Shown here piece by piece: positions 8,818 through 25,653 of a DNA stretch of 64,000 nt; position 1 is the first letter of the stretch, and every line of letters starts with the position of its first letter. The notes under the pieces are model-generated. The model ran no database searches, was not told where the DNA came from, and saw only the letters and a program-made list of their open reading frames with translations. The stretch comes from Candidatus Anammoxibacter sp. (GTDB taxonomy: Bacteria > Planctomycetota > Brocadiia > Brocadiales > Anammoxibacteraceae), in the NCBI GenBank assembly GCA_021777055.1, contig JAIQZO010000046.1:1-64000 (forward strand), in the 5' to 3' direction. The position numbers and the translations under genes are program-made.

Positions 8818-8840
8818 TTACGCTAACTAACTTCAATGGT

Positions 8841-9332
8841 TCATTGAGATGATAATAGTAGCGAGCGAGCAATGTCAGTAGAGAAATTGACGAAAGGATC
8901 TCCTGTACCGATTTTCCTAAAATCCCATTTATAAGCTCCTGGTGTCTTGTTAATAACATGAGGTTCAAAGCAGACATATCCCTGATTTATTAATGTTATC
9001 GGAGATTCTTTCTTTTCGGAAAAGAAAAGTTCCCCTGAATTACTCGAACTCCCTTTTCCGGCAATTTTCACTATCATTCCACTGGAGCCATAAACGACGA
9101 TATAGGCAACTTTAGTAATTGACGATTGTGGGTCAACCCCATTATTAACTGTTAAAGATACATCATATATGCCTGGTATAGTATAATCATGCACCGGATT
9201 TTGCGCTGATGACCCAGTCATATCTTCAAAACCCCATAACCACGAATTAGCAGGGGTATCTCCTAAGGATTGGTCTGTAAATTGTACATATAAAGTTGAA
9301 AATTTTATATTCAGTGCGGCTAGTAATCCCAA
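8841..9332 (-). pseudogene. Fragment of PKD-domain surface protein
   Basis: A 163-residue frame containing one PKD domain: VQFTDQS.GDTPANSWLWGFED, then NPVHDYTIPGIYDVSLTVNN. A C-terminal domain ending in YKWDFRKIGTGDPFVNF is unrecognised. PKD domains occur in large secreted proteins, but this frame has no signal peptide. Its 5' end lies about 80 bp from an R1 repeat broken by the IS1182 element, so I infer it is the 3' part of a larger gene cut by repeat-mediated rearrangement. Confidence 0.55.
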
Positions 9333-9410
9333 ATTCTCGTCACAAAAACCGTCACCTTCTCGCCTTCTAGTAAAGGCGCTACTAACTTTAATCTTTTATG
9401 TCAAAATTTG

Positions 9411-9424
9411 GGGTCAGACCTTGA
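9411..9424 (+). repeat. R1 repeat, left part, interrupted by IS
   Basis: GGGTCAGACCTTGA immediately abuts the left end of the IS. The right part resumes at 11297 with TTGAAAACAGAATAAGCC, so joining the two restores the usual R1 sequence. Confidence 0.85.
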
Positions 9425-11296
9425 CAGGCTGTCCGAGAATGTCAGATGGAGAAATCACACCCCAGTCAGTCAAATTAATAGAAGGCCCAGATAATTAATG
9501 ATATAATTACCTTTAATGAATTCCCAGAAAAGAACTAAATATAAGCAATTTATACTAGTTCCAAAATCATATTTAATTCCATCAGAAGAAGCAAGTAAGC
9601 GCCCAACGGATAGGCTAGAAATATGTAGTAATGATAAAAGGAGAATTAACCAAATGTCCAAATTTAAAGCACTACATGAATTTCAAAAGCCCCTGCAATG
9701 TTTAACGCCAGAATCATTTCTAGATTATGTAAATGGAGTAATACCGCAAGATCATTTATGCCGATTGGTCAAAGAGATAGTATGGACATTAGATACAGTA
9801 TCAGTAGAAGAGAAATATTCATTTTTAGGCCAAAGGACATATCATCCCAAACTATTATTAAGTTTACTGTTTTATGGTTACGCAACGGGAACACGTAGTA
9901 GCCGTAAGCTAGAAGAGAAGTGTCTAAGCGATCATAATTACATATTCTTAATGCGATGTTATAAGCCAGATCATAGAACAATAAGTGATTTTCGCAAAAA
10001 TAGTCTAAAAGAGATAGAAAGCTGTTTTGTAGAAATAGTACGAATATTTCAGAAACTAGGATTTACAAATGTAGGAAAGATATATATAGATGGAACAAAG
10101 ATAAAAGGTAGTGCCTCAGCAAAACGCACAAAGGATAGGGAGGGATTTTCTAACTGGTTAACAAAAATAGAGGAAGAGATATCAGGCCTATTAGAGGAGG
10201 CAGAAGCGATAGACGATGAGGAGGACAAGAGATGCAAATCAGTAGAGTCAGAAGAGTTGTTAAAGAAGAAGTTGTCAAAGCGAACCTATTTAAAGTCTAA
10301 GATAAAAGCAGCTCTGGAAGTGATGGAAGAGGAGAATCTAACTAAGTTGAATTTAACAGATCATGATGCGCATCATATGAAAGCGGGAGGGAGCAAAGAT
10401 ATCCGTCCAGGTTACAACTGTCAATCATCAGTGACAGAAGATGGAGTAATAATTGCAGCAGAGGCATCAACAGACCCAAACGATTGTAACCAATTAAAAC
10501 CAATAATAGAAAAGAGCAGATCAAACACCCAGGAGGCAGTAAAAGAAGCAACTGCAGATAGTGGTTACGGTAATTACACCAATTATGAATATTTAGAAGA
10601 GGAAAATATAGAGGGATATGTGCCAGATAGATTCTTCCATCAATACAAAACAGGGGAATACGAAAAAGAAAAGAATCGTTATCACTATACGAACTTCAAA
10701 TATGATTCATCAACAGAGAGCTATATATGCCCAGAAGGCAAGAGACTAGAATACTGGAAAACGCGTAAGAACAAGAGCAAAACGAGGCAATGGAATCATA
10801 AGGTTTATAAAGGAAGAGGTTGTGCAAGTTGTACCAAGCGAGCGTTATGCACAAAATCTAAAGAACGAGAATTATTAATTGATATAAGAGAACCCTTGTT
10901 ACAAAAGATGCGCAAAAAGTTAATGACAGAAGAAGGCAAAGCAAAATATTATAAACGACAGTATACAATTGAACCAATATTTGGTCATATAAAATTTAAC
11001 ATTGGCTATAGATCCTTTCTGCTGCGTGGCAAAGAAAAAGTAAATGGCGAATTTAAGTTAATGAGTATTGGCTGGAATTTGAAAAAGTTATTACAAATGA
11101 AAGCAAAAGCCGCATAAGGTATAAAATATAAGATATTCTTACCTTATTAATACTACAAACGGCATATAATGTATTAAATTATTTTCAATACCAAGAAGTT
11201 AGGCAACCATGTCAAGATGGGAAGAAAGTCTAGCAAATTGTCCAGTAAATATCCACCAAATCCTTTGTCATTCTATAATCATTCTCGGACAACCTG
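9425..11296 (+). mobile_element. IS1182-type insertion sequence, intact
   Basis: The element is 1,872 bp. The left end (9425-9441) and the inverse of the right end (11280-11296) both read CAGG(C/T)TGTCCGAGAATG, with 16 of 17 bases matching. The 4-bp target duplication TTGA lies at 9421-9424 and 11297-11300. One transposase gene on the + strand fills it. It inserted into an R1 repeat, and perfect ends suggest a recent event. Confidence 0.92.
9654..11117 (+). CDS. IS1182 family transposase
   Basis: A 487-residue transposase. I start at ATG 9654 (MSKFKALHEF) because AAGGAG lies upstream at 9638-9643; the frame is open further upstream. The N-terminal DUF772-type domain includes YHPKLLLSLLFYGYATG and RSSRKLEEKC. 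The catalytic core has IYIDGTKIKGSASAKR (first Asp), then TADSGYGNY (second Asp), and the C-terminal YTIEPIFGHIKFNIGYR.FLLRG (Glu). A cysteine cluster, C-x2-C-x5-C, lies before the third motif. All catalytic residues appear present. Confidence 0.9.
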   Translation: MSKFKALHEFQKPLQCLTPESFLDYVNGVIPQDHLCRLVKEIVWTLDTVSVEEKYSFLGQRTYHPKLLLSLLFYGYATGTRSSRKLEEKCLSDHNYIFLMRCYKPDHRTISDFRKNSLKEIESCFVEIVRIFQKLGFTNVGKIYIDGTKIKGSASAKRTKDREGFSNWLTKIEEEISGLLEEAEAIDDEEDKRCKSVESEELLKKKLSKRTYLKSKIKAALEVMEEENLTKLNLTDHDAHHMKAGGSKDIRPGYNCQSSVTEDGVIIAAEASTDPNDCNQLKPIIEKSRSNTQEAVKEATADSGYGNYTNYEYLEEENIEGYVPDRFFHQYKTGEYEKEKNRYHYTNFKYDSSTESYICPEGKRLEYWKTRKNKSKTRQWNHKVYKGRGCASCTKRALCTKSKERELLIDIREPLLQKMRKKLMTEEGKAKYYKRQYTIEPIFGHIKFNIGYRSFLLRGKEKVNGEFKLMSIGWNLKKLLQMKAKAA

Positions 11297-12468: not shown

Positions 12469-14100
12469 ATGTCATTAAAAAACAAAAAGCTCCGCTCTTT
12501 TTGGGTAGTTCTGTTCGTATCAATTGTAATAGCAGTATTTGTAGATAATGGTTTGTTTGCACAAGGAGAATCTTCCAGTTCAGAGGCAACATCGAAGCTT
12601 AAGATTCTATCAGGGTCAACGGAGGCAGATGAGATTACCGAAATAAGAAGACTTATAGAAGCGGGTGCTAATGTTAATATTATTAATATATGGGGAGAAA
12701 CTCCCCTTTGGAGAGCTTCGGAAAAAGGCCAGGCCGAGGTTGTTAAGATGCTGCTGGAGGCTAATGCGCATGTGAATGCTGGTGTGAATAAAGCCGATCG
12801 TAAAGGAATTACGCCATTATGGATAGCATCGGAAAAAGGCCACATAGAAGTTGTAAAGATGCTGCTGGAGGCCAATGCAGATGTAAATGATGCCTACACG
12901 ACAACAGACGGTATAACCCCACTATTTATAGCGTCGAAATTTGGGCAAGTGGAAGTTGTAAAGATCCTACTAGAAGCTGGAGCTGATGTGAATAAAGCCG
13001 ACATAGTGAACGGCTATACTCCACTCTCGATCGCGTTGGAAAAAGGTCACACCGATATTGGTAAGCTGCTGCTGCAAGCCGGTGCGGATGTGAATAAAGC
13101 TGATCATAAAGGAATTACTCCATTATGGCATGCATCATGGGATGTACAACCCGAAGTCGTTAAGCTGCTGCTGGAAGCCGGGGCTGATGTGAATCTGGCT
13201 GAAGCTACAAAAGGAATTACTCCGCTATGGATGGCGTCGGAGATTGGGCAATCCGACATCGTCGAGCTGCTACTGGAAGCCGGGGCTGATGTGAATATAT
13301 CGGAAACTACAAAAGGTATTACACCGTTATGGATAGCAACGCAAAATGGGCAAGCCGAAGTAGTTAATCTGCTGCTGAAAGCCAAAGCTGATGTGAATCA
13401 AGCTAGAACAAAAGACGGAATTACACCGCTTTATATAGCATCGCAAGAAGGCCATACGCAAATCATCAAACTTCTATTAGAAGCAAGTGCAGATGTAAAT
13501 ATGGCCGAAACAACAGACGGCGTTACTCCGCTATGGATAGCGACTCAAAATGGTCAAACCGACGTTGTTAAGTTACTATTGGACGCCAACGCCAACGTGA
13601 ATCAGGCGGAAACAACATACGGTCGTACTCCGCTATACAAAGCGTCGCAAAATGGTAACACCGAAGTCGTTAAGCTGCTCCTGGAAGCCAGTGCTGATGT
13701 AAACCAGGCCAAAGATAAAGGAGTTACTCCGTTATGGATAGCGACACAAAATGGCCAAACCGAGGTCGTTAAGTTACTATTGGACGCTAAAGCCGATGTG
13801 AATCAGGACAGAACAAAAGACGGAAGTACTCCGCTATTAATAGCGGCGCTGAATGACCAAACCGAAATTGTTAAGTTACTATTGGCAGCCAAGGCTGATG
13901 TGAATAAAGCCGATAAAGACGGCGAGACTCCACTATTCATCGCATCGTGGAAAGGTCATACCGAAGTCGTAAAACTACTCCTGGAAGCCAATGCGGATTT
14001 TAGTATAGCTGATAAAAACGGCGCTACTCCGCTAGACATAGCGTCGCAAGAGGGCCAAGCCGAAGTTGTCAAGCTGTTACAGGAAGCAAAGCAGATGTAA
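12469..14100 (+). CDS. Secreted ankyrin-repeat protein, frameshifted 3' end
   Basis: A 543-residue protein with an N-terminal signal peptide (hydrophobic FWVVLFVSIVIAVFV, probable cleavage after LFA). It is followed by a partial N-terminal repeat and 14 ankyrin repeats of about 33 residues, each with the G-x-TPL-x-IA core and a VVKLLL(E)A(G/N)ADVN end. Ankyrin repeats bind partner proteins; a periplasmic or secreted role is inferred, the partner unknown. Near 14085-14090 the sequence gaagcaaagcag seems to lack one base. In the next frame it would read ADVNKADKGDETPL before a stop, so the current end EAKQM is a frameshift product. A MITE with a target duplication begins immediately after. The repeats are alike and prone to recombination. 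Confidence 0.85.
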   Translation: MSLKNKKLRSFWVVLFVSIVIAVFVDNGLFAQGESSSSEATSKLKILSGSTEADEITEIRRLIEAGANVNIINIWGETPLWRASEKGQAEVVKMLLEANAHVNAGVNKADRKGITPLWIASEKGHIEVVKMLLEANADVNDAYTTTDGITPLFIASKFGQVEVVKILLEAGADVNKADIVNGYTPLSIALEKGHTDIGKLLLQAGADVNKADHKGITPLWHASWDVQPEVVKLLLEAGADVNLAEATKGITPLWMASEIGQSDIVELLLEAGADVNISETTKGITPLWIATQNGQAEVVNLLLKAKADVNQARTKDGITPLYIASQEGHTQIIKLLLEASADVNMAETTDGVTPLWIATQNGQTDVVKLLLDANANVNQAETTYGRTPLYKASQNGNTEVVKLLLEASADVNQAKDKGVTPLWIATQNGQTEVVKLLLDAKADVNQDRTKDGSTPLLIAALNDQTEIVKLLLAAKADVNKADKDGETPLFIASWKGHTEVVKLLLEANADFSIADKNGATPLDIASQEGQAEVVKLLQEAKQM

Positions 14101-14137: not shown

Positions 14138-14312
14138 GAGCATTGTCCGACATGAAGTGCCTAAAGTGCCTAAAGTGCCTAAAATTATAGAAATTTATTA
14201 TTAATAAAAAACAAGGCTATAAACTTTAGGTGCTTTTTTGCATCATGATGTTGCAAAATGTTCATAAATATGGAACATTATCGAACTGCAAAAGGCTAAC
14301 CGTACAATGCTG
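14138..14312. mobile_element. R3 MITE, copy a, with 9-bp target duplication
   Basis: A 175-bp non-coding element with short inverted ends (GAGCATTGTCCG at the left, CGTACAATGCTG at the right). It is flanked by the direct repeat ACTATAAGT at 14129-14137 and 14313-14321. It contains a three-unit tandem repeat GTGCCTAAA and a conserved AATTTATTATTAATAAAAAA segment shared with copy b near 22507. Confidence 0.85.
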
Positions 14313-18341: not shown

Positions 18342-19418
18342 ATGAGATTATTTATACTAATTGTTTTACCATGGATTTTAATACATTCAAATAGTGTTGA
18401 TGCGCAAATAGATTATAGTAAGGATGCAGATCTTATTCGAAGCTATTATGAACAAAGAGCCTTTGAGCTACCACCTTCAAAAGCTGGTCATATGGGATGT
18501 CGTTTATATCGCCAGTATGGAGATAAGCGTTACAAGTTCTTAATTTTGCAAGATATAAAGAATATCGATCAAAGATTTAGAAGTATTAAGGGAAAGGGCT
18601 TAGACCCTGCAAGTTTGTTGAAAATCAGCAGGCAAGAAATAAAGGATTATAATAAATCTGACAATGAACGTTATGTACGTAGACGTAAAACGTTTGATAG
18701 TTATCCTACCTATAGGCTTATTGCAGTAAGTATCCTTGGCGGACTAGCCAAACTCAATAATTATGGTTTAAAGTGTGCAGATGAAGATTTATTTCGTAAG
18801 GTAATACATGGCTATAACTTTAAACATGTATTTAGAGATCCTGTGATGATACGTGCGTGGGGAGCACAGCTTGCTAACCAGGTTTATTGGCTAAAACAGT
18901 TAGGAGAAAGGGATCTTTCACACACGTTTTCTCAAGCTGTCAGAAGAACTTATCCTAACAGTAAAGACCATTTGCTTAGCCAACAGCAGTTTACCAACAA
19001 AATATATACATTGACTCATATTATTATTAGTGCTTCAGAATACTATCAAAAACCGGTAAATGCGGTTGAATTTAGTTGGATCTTGGACTATTTTAGCGCT
19101 AATCTAAGTACTATCATTAAGCGTTGCAATGTAGATGTCATCGCTGAGGTTGGGCTTTCATATCTGTTGGCGGAAAAAGAAGATGCATCGGAAGTGGAAA
19201 TAATAAGGGCATTTGTTAGTTCTTCAATTAATAAGGATGCGAGCATGATACCATCATCAAAAGGTGGTACTGATTTCGTCTATGGCGAGCATAGAAATAT
19301 ATTGGCTGTTATGTTATTAGATTGGCAAGGTACTACACGACGGCCTTACACAAAGGAAATTCCTGAGTTAAAAGATCACCTCCCCACCAGTTTAGTATTT
19401 GATAAAAGTGTTCAATAA
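18342..19418 (+). CDS. DUF3541-type exported protein, paralogue 1
   Basis: A 358-residue protein with a signal peptide (MRLFILIVLPWILIHSNSVDA). The mature part fits DUF3541: HMGCRLYRQYGDKRY, a DP.MI.AWGAQLANQVYWLKQLGE segment, TNKIYTLTHIII.AS.YYQ, and DVIAEVGLSYLLAE. The family is found mainly in marine gammaproteobacteria, and its function is unknown. Alpha-helical repeats like those of glycan-binding proteins are likely. A paralogue follows 460 bp downstream. Both have GEHRN near the C-terminus, a conserved polar motif that may be functional. Confidence 0.75.
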   Translation: MRLFILIVLPWILIHSNSVDAQIDYSKDADLIRSYYEQRAFELPPSKAGHMGCRLYRQYGDKRYKFLILQDIKNIDQRFRSIKGKGLDPASLLKISRQEIKDYNKSDNERYVRRRKTFDSYPTYRLIAVSILGGLAKLNNYGLKCADEDLFRKVIHGYNFKHVFRDPVMIRAWGAQLANQVYWLKQLGERDLSHTFSQAVRRTYPNSKDHLLSQQQFTNKIYTLTHIIISASEYYQKPVNAVEFSWILDYFSANLSTIIKRCNVDVIAEVGLSYLLAEKEDASEVEIIRAFVSSSINKDASMIPSSKGGTDFVYGEHRNILAVMLLDWQGTTRRPYTKEIPELKDHLPTSLVFDKSVQ

Positions 19419-19824: not shown

Positions 19825-20981
19825 ATGAAAGTCGGTAAACAATTACTAAAAAAAACGTGCTATAGTTTTTCTTTTTAGTTTTGCTAACAGGCAATATCCA
19901 TTTACTTTCTGAGCAGTTTGCTGCTGACGTACCAGTGCAAATTATTCCAACACTGACTGATGCCGATGTTGTTCAAGGTATACAGCAGACCTTTGAACAG
20001 AATCTTTTTCAATTACCTCCACGTATTCAGGGACATTACGGTATTCGTTTGTATCGCTTGACCGGAATGGTTAAGTATCTGCATGCCGCCCTTTATGATT
20101 ATTTCGCGGTGGCGGATCAGTTAAATGCTATATTGCCATATATTAACAACCCTGCGCATATTAATACTCTGTCAAAATCATTGGCTGCCCTGTTATCAAA
20201 AAATGAACGGGGCAAGGCTAGAAGCCAAACGCTCAGGAAATATCCTGATTTCATTTTTTATGCCGACGCTTTACTCCGTTATGCTTCACGCTTGGATGAG
20301 TTTGGGGTTCGAGTACCGGATAAAGTACTTAAAGTACTATCCAGTTATGATTTTAAGTCCGCAATAACAAATAAAGCCATGATACATGCCTGGGCGGCTC
20401 AATTGGCAAATTATGCTTATTGGCTGAAACAACTTGGCATTGCTGATTATGTAGAGGCAACTCGATTGGCTTTCCTTACCGCTTATCCAGACGAAGAGGA
20501 TACGAAACTATCCAAATGGGAATATAATAACAAACTATACGGGTTAACACATTATGTTCTTGCCGCTAGTGGCTACTATCAGCATAGTTTGGAGAAGGAA
20601 GAGTTTAACTGGGCTCTGGATTATTTTGTTAATAATCTAGAACGTATCTTTGCAACTGCAAGTGCGGATATTATTGCTGAAATCGGCATTAGCTTTTTGC
20701 TAACCGGGCAAGGAAACCATGATCTAGTTGCTCAGGCAAAAGACAAGATTATCCGTTCATATAATAATGATCACGGCATGATACCTTCGGTGAATGGAAA
20801 GTTCGACTTAGCTACAGGTGAGCATAGAAATGTTCTGGCCTTGATGTTATTAAGCTGGCCTAACACTCTCTATCCTGGGCCTTATTTTCACCAGATTAAA
20901 TCCATAAGCAAGTATCTTCCCAAATCGCCTAGCCATTGGCTAACAACAGAAAGTCCGCTTAAGCTGGACAGCAAAAACTGA
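19825..20981 (+). pseudogene. DUF3541-type protein, paralogue 2, frameshifted in signal peptide
   Basis: The body, open from TTG 19881 (366 codons), aligns along its length with the gene at 18342: GHYGIRLYRLTG, AWAAQLANYAYWLKQLG, NNKLYGLTHYVLAASGYYQ, ADIIAEIGISFLL and TGEHRNVLALMLL. A signal-peptide start lies at ATG 19825 (MKVGKQLLKKTCYS) in another frame that stops at 19876. Adding one T to the run at 19866-19870 joins it to FFFLVLLTGNIHLLSEQFAADVP, a complete signal peptide. The gene is therefore interrupted by a 1-base deletion in a homopolymer, or is phase-variable, or reflects a sequencing error. Without the fix, the protein would lack an export signal. Confidence 0.75.
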
Positions 20982-22461: not shown

Positions 22462-22844
22462 AATCTGTTACTCTCCATATGGCATTTTTGAAAGATTGAA
22501 AGGTTAAATGCCTAAAATGCCTAAAATGCCTAAAATGCCTAAAATGCGCTAAAATTATAGAAATTTATTATTAATAAAAAACAAGGCTATTAACTTTGAG
22601 AGTTTTTTTTACAGCATGATCTTGTAAAATGTTCATAAATATGAAAAATTTTTCACTGCAAAAGGCTAACTGGACAATGCTGAAAGTGACCGGGAATTCG
22701 ACATTTAACGATCTATCTTTCAACTATCTTTGAATGTTATTTTCTCATGCATTCCTTGAAATCGCGAAGGCGGCACAGGTGGTAGAGCTCAATAATAAAA
22801 TACCGGTCTAACCAAAACATAAATCACTAAATGTCAAACCCTAA
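22462..22844. repeat. Gap with R3 copy b and 9-bp tandem repeat
   Basis: Copies of ATGCCTAAA repeat about five times at 22507-22553, followed by the R3 body with AATTTATTATTAATAAAAAA and an end TGGACAATGCTGA near 22672-22685. The left inverted end seen in copy a is absent. No gene. Confidence 0.7.
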
Positions 22845-24305
22845 TCACTTTGAATATAATGGAGTTGTTTTATGGTTATTAGATGCATCAGAATTGGCTA
22901 CTACTTTTGGGAATAATTTTTGCAGTTTTTCTGCAAGCTGTTTCGCAGATTCGGATTGTTTAAATGAAAGGTAATAGGTCGCAAGCATTTCTGGTAGGTT
23001 ATATTTTAATTCATTACAATATCCTCTACTCGGTTTTACACTCTTCAGAATACCTAAATCCAGACAACCAGCCATGCATTGGGGAAGAACTTTACAATCG
23101 CAGCATTCACTAAGGTCTTCTATATGCCAATTCATCCAGCTATCAAGGTTTACTTTCATTTTTGGAGTCTCTATTTCAGTATTAAGGTTTAAAACTGCTT
23201 TTTCCGGTTGGGTAACGTGGTTCCAGCACTTGTATACCAAGCCATTTGCACCGAAAACCCAACTATTAACATTATCAGCAACACATACATTAGGAAGGGA
23301 TTTAGGCAAAACCGGCATTCCATAACCCCGCTTATAAGCCGCAAACTGGAGTTGTGTATGTAGCTTTGACCATGTCTCTTTTACAAATAAGCATGAACCT
23401 ACTGTGTTTGCACACACATCAGTGTATGCAGTAACAGGAGCGAAATAAGTACCAATTTTACCTCGTAGCCCGGCTTCGTCAAGCTGATCAAAAATCTCAG
23501 GAACTATTTTCTTAATATTTCTTTTGTCCACATTTACGCGAACTGTTATCCCCAACCTTGGATCAGAAAGAGACAGATTATTTAGTATTTTATCAAAGGT
23601 TGGAGCCGCAATCAGATACGGACGGCGGCTGTTATGCACATCTCGTGGGCCATCAAGAGTAATCTGGCACTGCTTTACACCCAAGTCTACAAGCAATTTA
23701 CTAACTGATTTATTTAGTAACCAACCATTTGTTACTATTGTAGCATCGTATTTAATGTCACCATTATCGATATTCACAAAACGTTTTGAAAGGTCTTTTA
23801 TAACTGAAAGAGCCAAAAGAGGCTCGCCACCAAACCATGTCACAGAAAGTGATTTGACTTTAGGTTTTCTAGTTTCAATAAATTTAACAATCCTGTCTTG
23901 AATATCCCGTGGCATTATGCCAGGTAAATGGTCTTCATAACAGTAAATACATCGAAAATTACAATCTAAAGTAGGGCAAATGGTTAGATTGATATGTTCT
24001 GAAGGGGTAAAGCGAGCAATTTTGTTGCTGTTGTTAAAGAGTGCAACCTCATCCAATTCCTCTGGTACAAGAATACCTTGATCTTGAAACAGTTTCAGAA
24101 TATTAGATTCTCTACAATTATTAAGGTTCGGTTCAGAAAGTATTTCTTCCGCTTCTTTACGATAAGCTTCCGGTATCTCAACAAGCCTGCCAGCTAGACC
24201 GCCAAAAAGTAAAAGAACACCAATATCTTGTAAATTTACCTTAGTTACATAGCGTGATACTTTCCAGCGGTCTGAAAGTTTACTACTGTATTGCAGAGTC
24301 ATCAT
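22845..24305 (-). CDS. Radical SAM/SPASM peptide-modifying enzyme
   Basis: A 486-residue radical SAM protein. The 4Fe-4S motif is C115-x3-C119-x2-C122 in PTLDCNFRCIYCYED, followed by WFGGEPLL, TNGWLL and QITLDGPRDVHN, all typical of SPASM-family peptide maturases. The C-terminal third has the auxiliary-cluster cysteines: CWNHV, then CCDCKVLPQCMAGC and a late Cys. Residues 1-105 form an N-terminal extension that could bind a precursor. The start overlaps the 3' end of the upstream cysteine-rich Tat protein gene by 23 bp, so the two are translationally coupled. That makes the neighbour the likely substrate. I cannot place it in a named subfamily. Confidence 0.88.
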   Translation of the reverse strand: MMTLQYSSKLSDRWKVSRYVTKVNLQDIGVLLLFGGLAGRLVEIPEAYRKEAEEILSEPNLNNCRESNILKLFQDQGILVPEELDEVALFNNSNKIARFTPSEHINLTICPTLDCNFRCIYCYEDHLPGIMPRDIQDRIVKFIETRKPKVKSLSVTWFGGEPLLALSVIKDLSKRFVNIDNGDIKYDATIVTNGWLLNKSVSKLLVDLGVKQCQITLDGPRDVHNSRRPYLIAAPTFDKILNNLSLSDPRLGITVRVNVDKRNIKKIVPEIFDQLDEAGLRGKIGTYFAPVTAYTDVCANTVGSCLFVKETWSKLHTQLQFAAYKRGYGMPVLPKSLPNVCVADNVNSWVFGANGLVYKCWNHVTQPEKAVLNLNTEIETPKMKVNLDSWMNWHIEDLSECCDCKVLPQCMAGCLDLGILKSVKPSRGYCNELKYNLPEMLATYYLSFKQSESAKQLAEKLQKLFPKVVANSDASNNHKTTPLYSK

Positions 24306-25206
24306 ATAAATTTCTGCCTATGTAATGTTCTACCGCATTAAAAAATTGTCTAGGATTAGATATTTCGAAAAATTCGAATAATTCTTGAACAAATGGATGG
24401 TTTATATTTGCTTCGATTTCTGATGCCGCAGTGTCAACAAATGTCACATGTGTATCACAACTAAATTGTGAAGAATCGTCAAAAACACCACACGTATTAT
24501 TAACACATTTATATGAGCTTTCAAGTGAACCTTCAGATACACCTGAATCAGGTACTCTTGTAATCGTATTTACAGCACAATGGTCTTGGCCACAAGTTGT
24601 AACTATATTAGGACTGCATTCTACTTTCCCCCTACAACCAATGTGAACAACGCAATCTAAACCTTCACAACGAATACGAATACATAATCCCGTAGAAATT
24701 TCAACTGAATCACCCTCTATATTTATGTTACCAAATCCTAAAGATGTATAAACATTTGTTTCATTTCCACCAACTACACCTGGTGCGGGAGAAGCCGAAA
24801 ATATTTCATGGGAAGCAGTAGGCATATTTTCCCATTCATCTGTACGCGTTAATATTTGCCTTACTGTATCTAAAAAGGTGCCCTCCTGTACTTGAACAAA
24901 GGGCTGACTTAACGCTTCTGATGAAAGTTTTAGAGTGGGGCTTACTGGTGGTTTGTTACGCACGGGAAAATAAATATTGCCATCTCTGTTCCTCCGATTA
25001 TTTCTCTGGGCATAAGCAGTACTTGATGAATTCCCTTCAGAAACTAATTGAGTGGCTGCTATTGCAGCGCCACTTACAGCAACGTCCTTAAAGAAACGAC
25101 GCCTTGATGAATTTCCTTCTGATTCATTTTTACATATATCAGTGGAAGTTTTGGTTTCAACATCTGTGCTAGTTTGTTTGCATTCTTTTTCTTTCTTCGT
25201 ACTCAT
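24283..25206 (-). CDS. Tat-signal cysteine-rich protein, putative rSAM substrate
   Basis: A 307-residue protein that I do not recognise. It has a Tat motif SRRRFFK (34-40) before a weakly hydrophobic stretch (DVAVSGAAIAATQLV) and an AYA cleavage site at about 66. A hydrophilic region follows, then a cysteine-rich core at 175-250 with ten Cys: C175, C180, C185, C191, C197, C205, C210, C234, C239, C250. Spacings are 4, 4, 5, 5, 7, 4, 23, 4 and 10 residues. A helical acidic C-terminus follows (FVQELFEFFEIS). Export through Tat implies folding or modification in the cytoplasm before export, consistent with the coupled radical SAM gene. The sequence does not show whether the cysteines are modified, bind metal or form disulfides. 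The ribosome binding site AGGAGG lies upstream of the ATG at 25206. Confidence 0.8.
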   Translation of the reverse strand: MSTKKEKECKQTSTDVETKTSTDICKNESEGNSSRRRFFKDVAVSGAAIAATQLVSEGNSSSTAYAQRNNRRNRDGNIYFPVRNKPPVSPTLKLSSEALSQPFVQVQEGTFLDTVRQILTRTDEWENMPTASHEIFSASPAPGVVGGNETNVYTSLGFGNINIEGDSVEISTGLCIRIRCEGLDCVVHIGCRGKVECSPNIVTTCGQDHCAVNTITRVPDSGVSEGSLESSYKCVNNTCGVFDDSSQFSCDTHVTFVDTAASEIEANINHPFVQELFEFFEISNPRQFFNAVEHYIGRNLYDDSAIQ

Positions 25207-25653
25207 ACAATTCCTCCTTTTTATAAGAGATTATAAGAAGTTACTTTCTAGAAATGAATTACAATTAACAAATTAGTAGATCCACGTCAAGTTAAAAGTT
25301 TCCTTCAAGCTTAAACAACATTTATTTGCATGTTATTTATTTTCTGCAAGGCATGAATCTATCGCCACCGAGTCAGAAGTAACGAAGAAAGAGATAATAG
25401 TATTACTTTATAAAAACTTCTTTTTTTTAATGATTTTGTGGTTTTTGTTGAATACAGAATACAGGAGTCAGAAGTCAGTACAACAAAAAGCACGAGTTGA
25501 AAAACCAACTTAATTCGTATCTATTTCCATTAATTAACAGAGCAAAATAACTAGAAATCTACGCTTTATTCTGAATTCTGAATTCTAAATTCTGCATTTG
25601 GTTGCGGCGTTGCCGCGATATGTGATATAAATTAAGGAAAGCCTAACTGTGCG
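25207..25653. repeat. Gap with R2 element (25398-25625)
   Basis: The R2 copy is complete. It has a left flank TATTACTTTATAAAAACTTC, a left arm AATACAGAATACAGGAGTCA, a right arm TTCTGAATTCTGAATTC and the end hairpin TTGCGGCGTTGCCGC. The promoter of the Tat-protein/rSAM operon should lie in 25,207-25,390. No gene. Confidence 0.75.

Follow-up and report, generated by a model that had tools for sequence, protein, structure and literature searches.

A Cys-rich protein with a putative Tat signal encoded together with a radical SAM/SPASM maturase in an anammox bacterium

To our knowledge, radical SAM thioether chemistry is established mostly in short peptides and in one enzyme subunit, QhpC. The structure 5wgg represents CteB, a thioether-forming ranthipeptide synthase (PMC7876137; PMC8326336), PapB accepts Cys-Xn-Asp with n = 0 to 6 (PMC9413430), and work on QhpD indicates that Cys-to-Asp/Glu stapling ahead of export is possible (PMC7876137). 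RiPPs that carry a signal peptide have so far been described with MNIO enzymes (PMC12452194); for the bufferins, preliminary results suggest that the signal peptide belongs to the recognition sequence. Here, we describe a gene pair in a 64,000-nucleotide stretch of DNA (hereafter, the window) in which a radical SAM/SPASM maturase overlaps the gene for a Cys-rich protein bearing a Tat-type signal. The pairing of the two proteins is well supported; the thioether chemistry, the order of events, the location, and the function of the Cys-rich protein are what we infer.

The gene pair and its surroundings

The upstream gene (CDS 24283..25206, minus strand) encodes a 307-aa Tat-signal, Cys-rich protein, the candidate substrate; apart from the signal, it matched no family in Pfam or NCBIfam. 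The downstream gene (CDS 22845..24305, minus strand) encodes a 486-aa radical SAM/SPASM maturase of the Clo7bot/TIGR04463/CefB group. An ORF check confirmed both reading frames as given by the first-pass annotation, with their coordinates, their order on the minus strand, and their 23-bp overlap (24283..24305). The Cys-rich gene starts 6 nt past a strong Shine-Dalgarno site, AAGGAGG (25213..25219, minus strand), whereas no comparable ribosome site was found for the maturase start (ATGATG, inside the Cys-rich gene). Together, the overlap and the lack of such a site suggest that the maturase is translationally coupled to the Cys-rich gene and that substrate is made in excess of enzyme. The GC content of the two genes (37 to 38%) matches that of the window (37%), and composition thus gives no sign of recent transfer.

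In a Pfam search, the flanking genes were identified as a Na/H exchanger and an NAD-binding protein; no MNIO gene adjoins the pair, and the immediate operon contains neither a protease nor a dedicated transporter gene. Inspection of the window near the maturase revealed no further short ORF that is both Cys-rich and preceded by a ribosome site, and a hidden short precursor close to the maturase was rejected on these grounds. In a synteny comparison, the neighboring Na/H exchanger was not found in a genome of the same family. Several other features of the window were recorded. Tandem arrays with a 9-bp unit lie at 22506-22555, between the maturase and the Na/H exchanger, and at 14155-14183 (AAATGCCTA and AAGTGCCTA, respectively). 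Two adjacent plus-strand genes (18342-19418 and 19881-20981; 376 and 385 bits) belong to the uncharacterized family DUF3541 and are apparently a tandem duplicate. Tandem repeats of 102 bp at 12469-14100 (plus strand) have, by eye only, an ankyrin-like reading (LLLEAGADVN...TPLWMA).

Homologues of the Cys-rich protein were found neither in its own genome (besides itself), 197 related genomes, plasmids, and viral contigs nor among 392 genomes sampled across the phylum. The weak matches from the phylum search were rejected as homologues: one is a stop-interrupted fragment that reads like a nucleoside phosphorylase, another protein reads like Cas1, and the rest are chance matches. Because no second example of the pair was found, the substrate status of the Cys-rich protein rests on adjacency.

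Placement of the maturase and the partners of its relatives

The maturase is complete. It contains the CxxxCxxC motif as CNFRCIYC (C115, C119, and C122; 23940..23963, minus strand) and a full set of SPASM cysteines (C341, C360, C401, C404, C410, C414, and C430; 23016..23285, minus strand), all invariant in alignment with relatives, and scores 46.6 bits against Pfam Radical_SAM (cut-off, 29.5). At its N terminus, the TIGR04334 profile aligns from position 1 and the CefB profile from near its first position; the region at the start of the TIGR04334 alignment (residues 15-101; 24003..24263, minus strand) is presumed to be a leader-binding, RRE-like domain.

Across the family profiles, the maturase scored 283.9 bits against TIGR04334 (Clo7bot; cut-off, 600), 261 against TIGR04463 (cut-off, 525), 206.5 against CefB (cut-off, 600), 184 against the geopeptide maturase profile (cut-off, 400), 172 against FlmE/OhkG (cut-off, 500), and 106 against PapB (cut-off, 340). 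The best scores thus fall in the Clo7bot/TIGR04463/CefB group yet all lie far below cut-off, which places the maturase in this group as a member of none of its families. These profiles, the invariant motif, and the SPASM cysteines support the initial proposal of a RiPP-type radical SAM/SPASM enzyme; the accompanying remark that no named family was recognized needs correcting, since the profiles put it with Clo7bot, TIGR04463, and CefB. The nearest sequences are 33 to 37% identical, with at most 37% identity to anything found, and in trees the maturase is a lone deep branch whose placement between the Clo7bot maturases and those of a planctomycete family (f39) shifts with sampling. When a profile of the maturase group was compared with solved structures, the top match was CteB. 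No enzyme of the group was detected elsewhere in the class of the host at E ≤ 1e-40 among 75 genomes. AlphaFold models computed from single sequences, with no alignment for the Cys-rich protein, had mean pLDDT values of 36 (maturase) and 31 (Cys-rich protein) and were set aside; they gave no support for the folded-looking C terminus that the first-pass annotation ascribed to the Cys-rich protein. The host genome (G000) as a whole contains 78 Radical_SAM matches, several of them clustered (e.g., C52:44823-64128 and C78:140536-142687).

The genes adjoining related maturases were also read. In Paraclostridium, a Clo7bot maturase lies downstream of nine small ORFs, seven of which are annotated as Clo7bot peptides, most starting with MKFIKKP. 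In Methylomagnum, a TIGR04463 maturase lies downstream of a 679-aa CefA protein that contains lectin and crystallin domains and ends in a CGADA repeat; the earlier view that a large precursor would exceed the known range is thus not supported. In the planctomycete genome G394, the maturase has two CefA-like neighbors (225 and 244 aa) that carry a GG motif and a CxxxxC tail, and in family f39, peptides of 32 to 36 residues with the pattern MKF[IV]...CxxCSExPxxC occur near every maturase read. The closest readable relatives therefore adjoin Cys-containing precursors, either peptides of 32 to 53 aa, the 225- and 244-aa CefA-like proteins, or the 679-aa CefA; within the closer group, a maturase usually adjoins a Cys-containing substrate, and some substrates are long. 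No clear Cys-rich partner was seen beside the remoter plasmid relatives of the maturase.

Two of these loci have features of their own. At the G394 locus, the CefA-like genes (L022:7954-8688 and 8823-9500) place the GG motif immediately ahead of a short CxxxxC core and are accompanied by a TIGR04463-like maturase and a gene resembling a B12-binding radical SAM enzyme. The f39 peptides (L019:11727, 12122, and 12446; L020:11720; L021:11474 and 11860; L038-L043) have an MKF[IV][VK]xP leader and a CxxCSExPxxC core, are present in one to three copies near a Clo7bot-like maturase, and, judged by these sequences, look like an unnamed RiPP family. One of three tested scored 15.4 bits against TIGR04333 (cut-off, 31), and the other two did not match. 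A gene of ~280 aa was present in all three fully read f39 loci; its copy in G347 had no Pfam or NCBIfam match.

The cysteine core, the export signal, and possible functions

The Cys-rich core (residues 175-250; 24457..24684, minus strand) contains ten Cys in exactly 76 residues, as first noted. At the window Cys frequency of 1.2%, the binomial probability of at least 10 Cys in 76 residues is 3e-8, and the ORF ranks first among 40 window ORFs in local Cys density. The gaps between Cys are 5, 5, 6, 6, 8, 5, 24, 5, and 11; six of the nine are 5 or 6 (random placement, p = 0.0026). The near-regular spacing originally described therefore holds within the first seven Cys and for a single pair further on but not for the remainder (gaps of 24 and 11). 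Together with the gene overlap and the Cys-containing neighbors of related maturases, this density supports the initial assignment of the Cys-rich protein as the likely substrate; given its adjacency, it is most likely the substrate of the maturase.

Features of known substrates were sought in the Cys-rich protein. CX3D/E is not repeated, an acid being present at +4 for 2 of the 10 Cys, and the CefA repeat model NF038108 gave no match at E ≤ 10. No Clo7bot-type leader was found with a position-specific scoring matrix: the best score was 2.3, compared with 9 to 22 in known leaders, and 91% of shuffled sequences equaled it. By the same comparison with shuffles, the segment GNIYFPVRNKP after the Tat cleavage site was rejected as a Clo7bot-like leader.

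The Tat-type signal region (residues 1-66; 25009..25206, minus strand), delimited by sequence, TIGR01409, and hydrophobicity, has an unusually long n-region of 33 residues ahead of the twin-arginine motif SRRRFFK (residues 34-40; 25087..25107, minus strand), together with a weakly hydrophobic h-region (best 13-mer Kyte-Doolittle value, 1.56), and a predicted cleavage site between STAYA and Q. The NCBIfam Tat model TIGR01409 scored 15.3 bits, just short of its cut-off of 16.7. The signal is thus good but subthreshold in the curated model, with the features of a Tat substrate present, and the motif, the weak h-region, the cleavage site, and a genomic TatC bear out the original call. This TatC is encoded by a 446-aa frame in the host genome (L058, G000:C91) and has a long C-terminal extension with a by-eye likeness to the TatC-FecR fusion reported in Kuenenia (PMC2881027). 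A hydrazine synthase alpha gene (97.5 bits) in the same genome identifies the host as an anammox bacterium. In Kuenenia, which is another genus, the Tat system is predicted to lie in the anammoxosome membrane (PMC2881027). Literature searches turned up no radical SAM RiPP that is exported by Tat, and none of the partners of related maturases was seen with a recognized Tat signal; the first-pass view that Tat export of a maturase substrate is unusual thus stands.

We propose that the two genes form a modification cassette in which the Cys region would be thioether cross-linked in the cytoplasm before Tat export, a reading to which we give slightly better than even chances. The Cys-rich protein would be synthesized in the cytoplasm and bound by the coupled maturase, probably through its N-terminal RRE-like domain. 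The maturase would join several Cys sulfurs within residues 175-250 to nearby side-chain carbons, in ranthipeptide-like fashion and with a loss of 2 Da per link. Tat would then export the stapled product, whose signal would be cut between AYA and Q. Beyond the cytoplasm, and possibly within the anammoxosome, the protein may serve as a stable Cys domain that is redox-inert or binds metal. Tat moves folded, often cofactor-bearing proteins and would therefore suit a substrate that is modified first. The best matches of the maturase are maturases of Cys-rich RiPP precursors, which favors this cassette; the family scores far below cut-off, the failure to find a second example of the pair, the absence of the leader motif, the CX3D/E repeat, and the CefA repeat, and the subthreshold Tat score count against it. 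More tentatively, the product may be a radical SAM-stapled folded protein and not a peptide natural product, sent by Tat to the anammoxosome or envelope, with thioethers that replace disulfides or shape a metal site.

The scarcity of CX3D/E motifs would also fit modification of the neighbor by a different chemistry (C-C cyclophane formation, epimerization, or a sactionine alpha-thioether), which would leave most Cys free for disulfides or metal, and SPASM maturases of similar sequence do perform several chemistries (PMC8326336). We nevertheless consider this unlikely, as the closest families all have Cys-containing substrates and a thioether synthase heads the solved structures matched by the group profile. 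Alternatively, the Cys-rich protein might be a Tat substrate in its own right, folding in the cytoplasm around a metal or an Fe-S cofactor, with the maturase acting elsewhere and the overlap reflecting operon packing. The kind of cargo that Tat carries, ten Cys that could bind metal, and the many radical SAM matches in the genome are compatible with this idea, which we judge quite unlikely: a Cys substrate consistently lies beside the closer maturases, no alternative substrate is visible nearby, and Pfam and NCBIfam searches matched the Cys-rich protein to no known metal-site or Fe-S family. A strict RiPP precursor, from which a short cross-linked peptide would be freed after export as a signal or toxin towards neighbors, is improbable: although short products are released from many precursors of radical SAM RiPPs and the Cys core is a compact segment, the immediate operon has no protease or dedicated transporter gene, and small secreted RiPPs resemble neither the Tat route nor a mature part of 240 residues.

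Comparison with described systems

If the thioether cassette is correct, a cell could staple a protein that then folds and is exported intact, and the idea of signal-peptide RiPPs would extend from MNIO enzymes to radical SAM maturases. Anammox bacteria, about whose organelle proteome little is known, would then also offer a modified protein open to testing; the interest of the pair would rise if modification and Tat export were both shown. Enzymes of this kind are known already, and annotated examples of large substrates exist. The present pair stands apart in its Tat signal, in the irregular core, which has no CefA repeats, and in the absence of a Clo7bot-type leader.

The Clo7bot system (TIGR04334/TIGR04333) provides the best maturase match, with 31 to 33% identity to the Paraclostridium enzyme, and likewise has a SPASM enzyme directly downstream of Cys-rich substrates, but those are short peptides that carry an MKFIxKP leader and lack a Tat signal. 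The TIGR04463/CefA-CefB (Cys-every-fifth) systems share a maturase of the same group adjoining a large Cys-rich protein; the CefA core consists of C-terminal CGADA-type repeats, preceded in G394 by a GG motif, whereas the present core is irregular and internal and follows a Tat signal. The PapB/freyrasin and CteB/SCIFF ranthipeptide systems have the same enzyme architecture but short precursors, and PapA has six CX3D/E motifs, a repeat not seen here. QhpD, like the maturase proposed here, is a radical SAM/SPASM enzyme that staples a protein-sized substrate in the cytoplasm prior to export (PMC7876137), but it is only a remote relative (46 bits), and QhpC has a leader of 28 residues that is cleaved off and leaves through an ABC exporter rather than by Tat. 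Bufferins resemble the proposed product in that a Cys-rich precursor with an export signal is modified in the cytoplasm and works outside it (PMC12452194), and, by analogy, the signal peptide could form part of the maturase recognition sequence in the present pair. They differ in using Sec, an MNIO enzyme, and thiooxazole chemistry, where the present pair combines a Tat signal with a radical SAM maturase.
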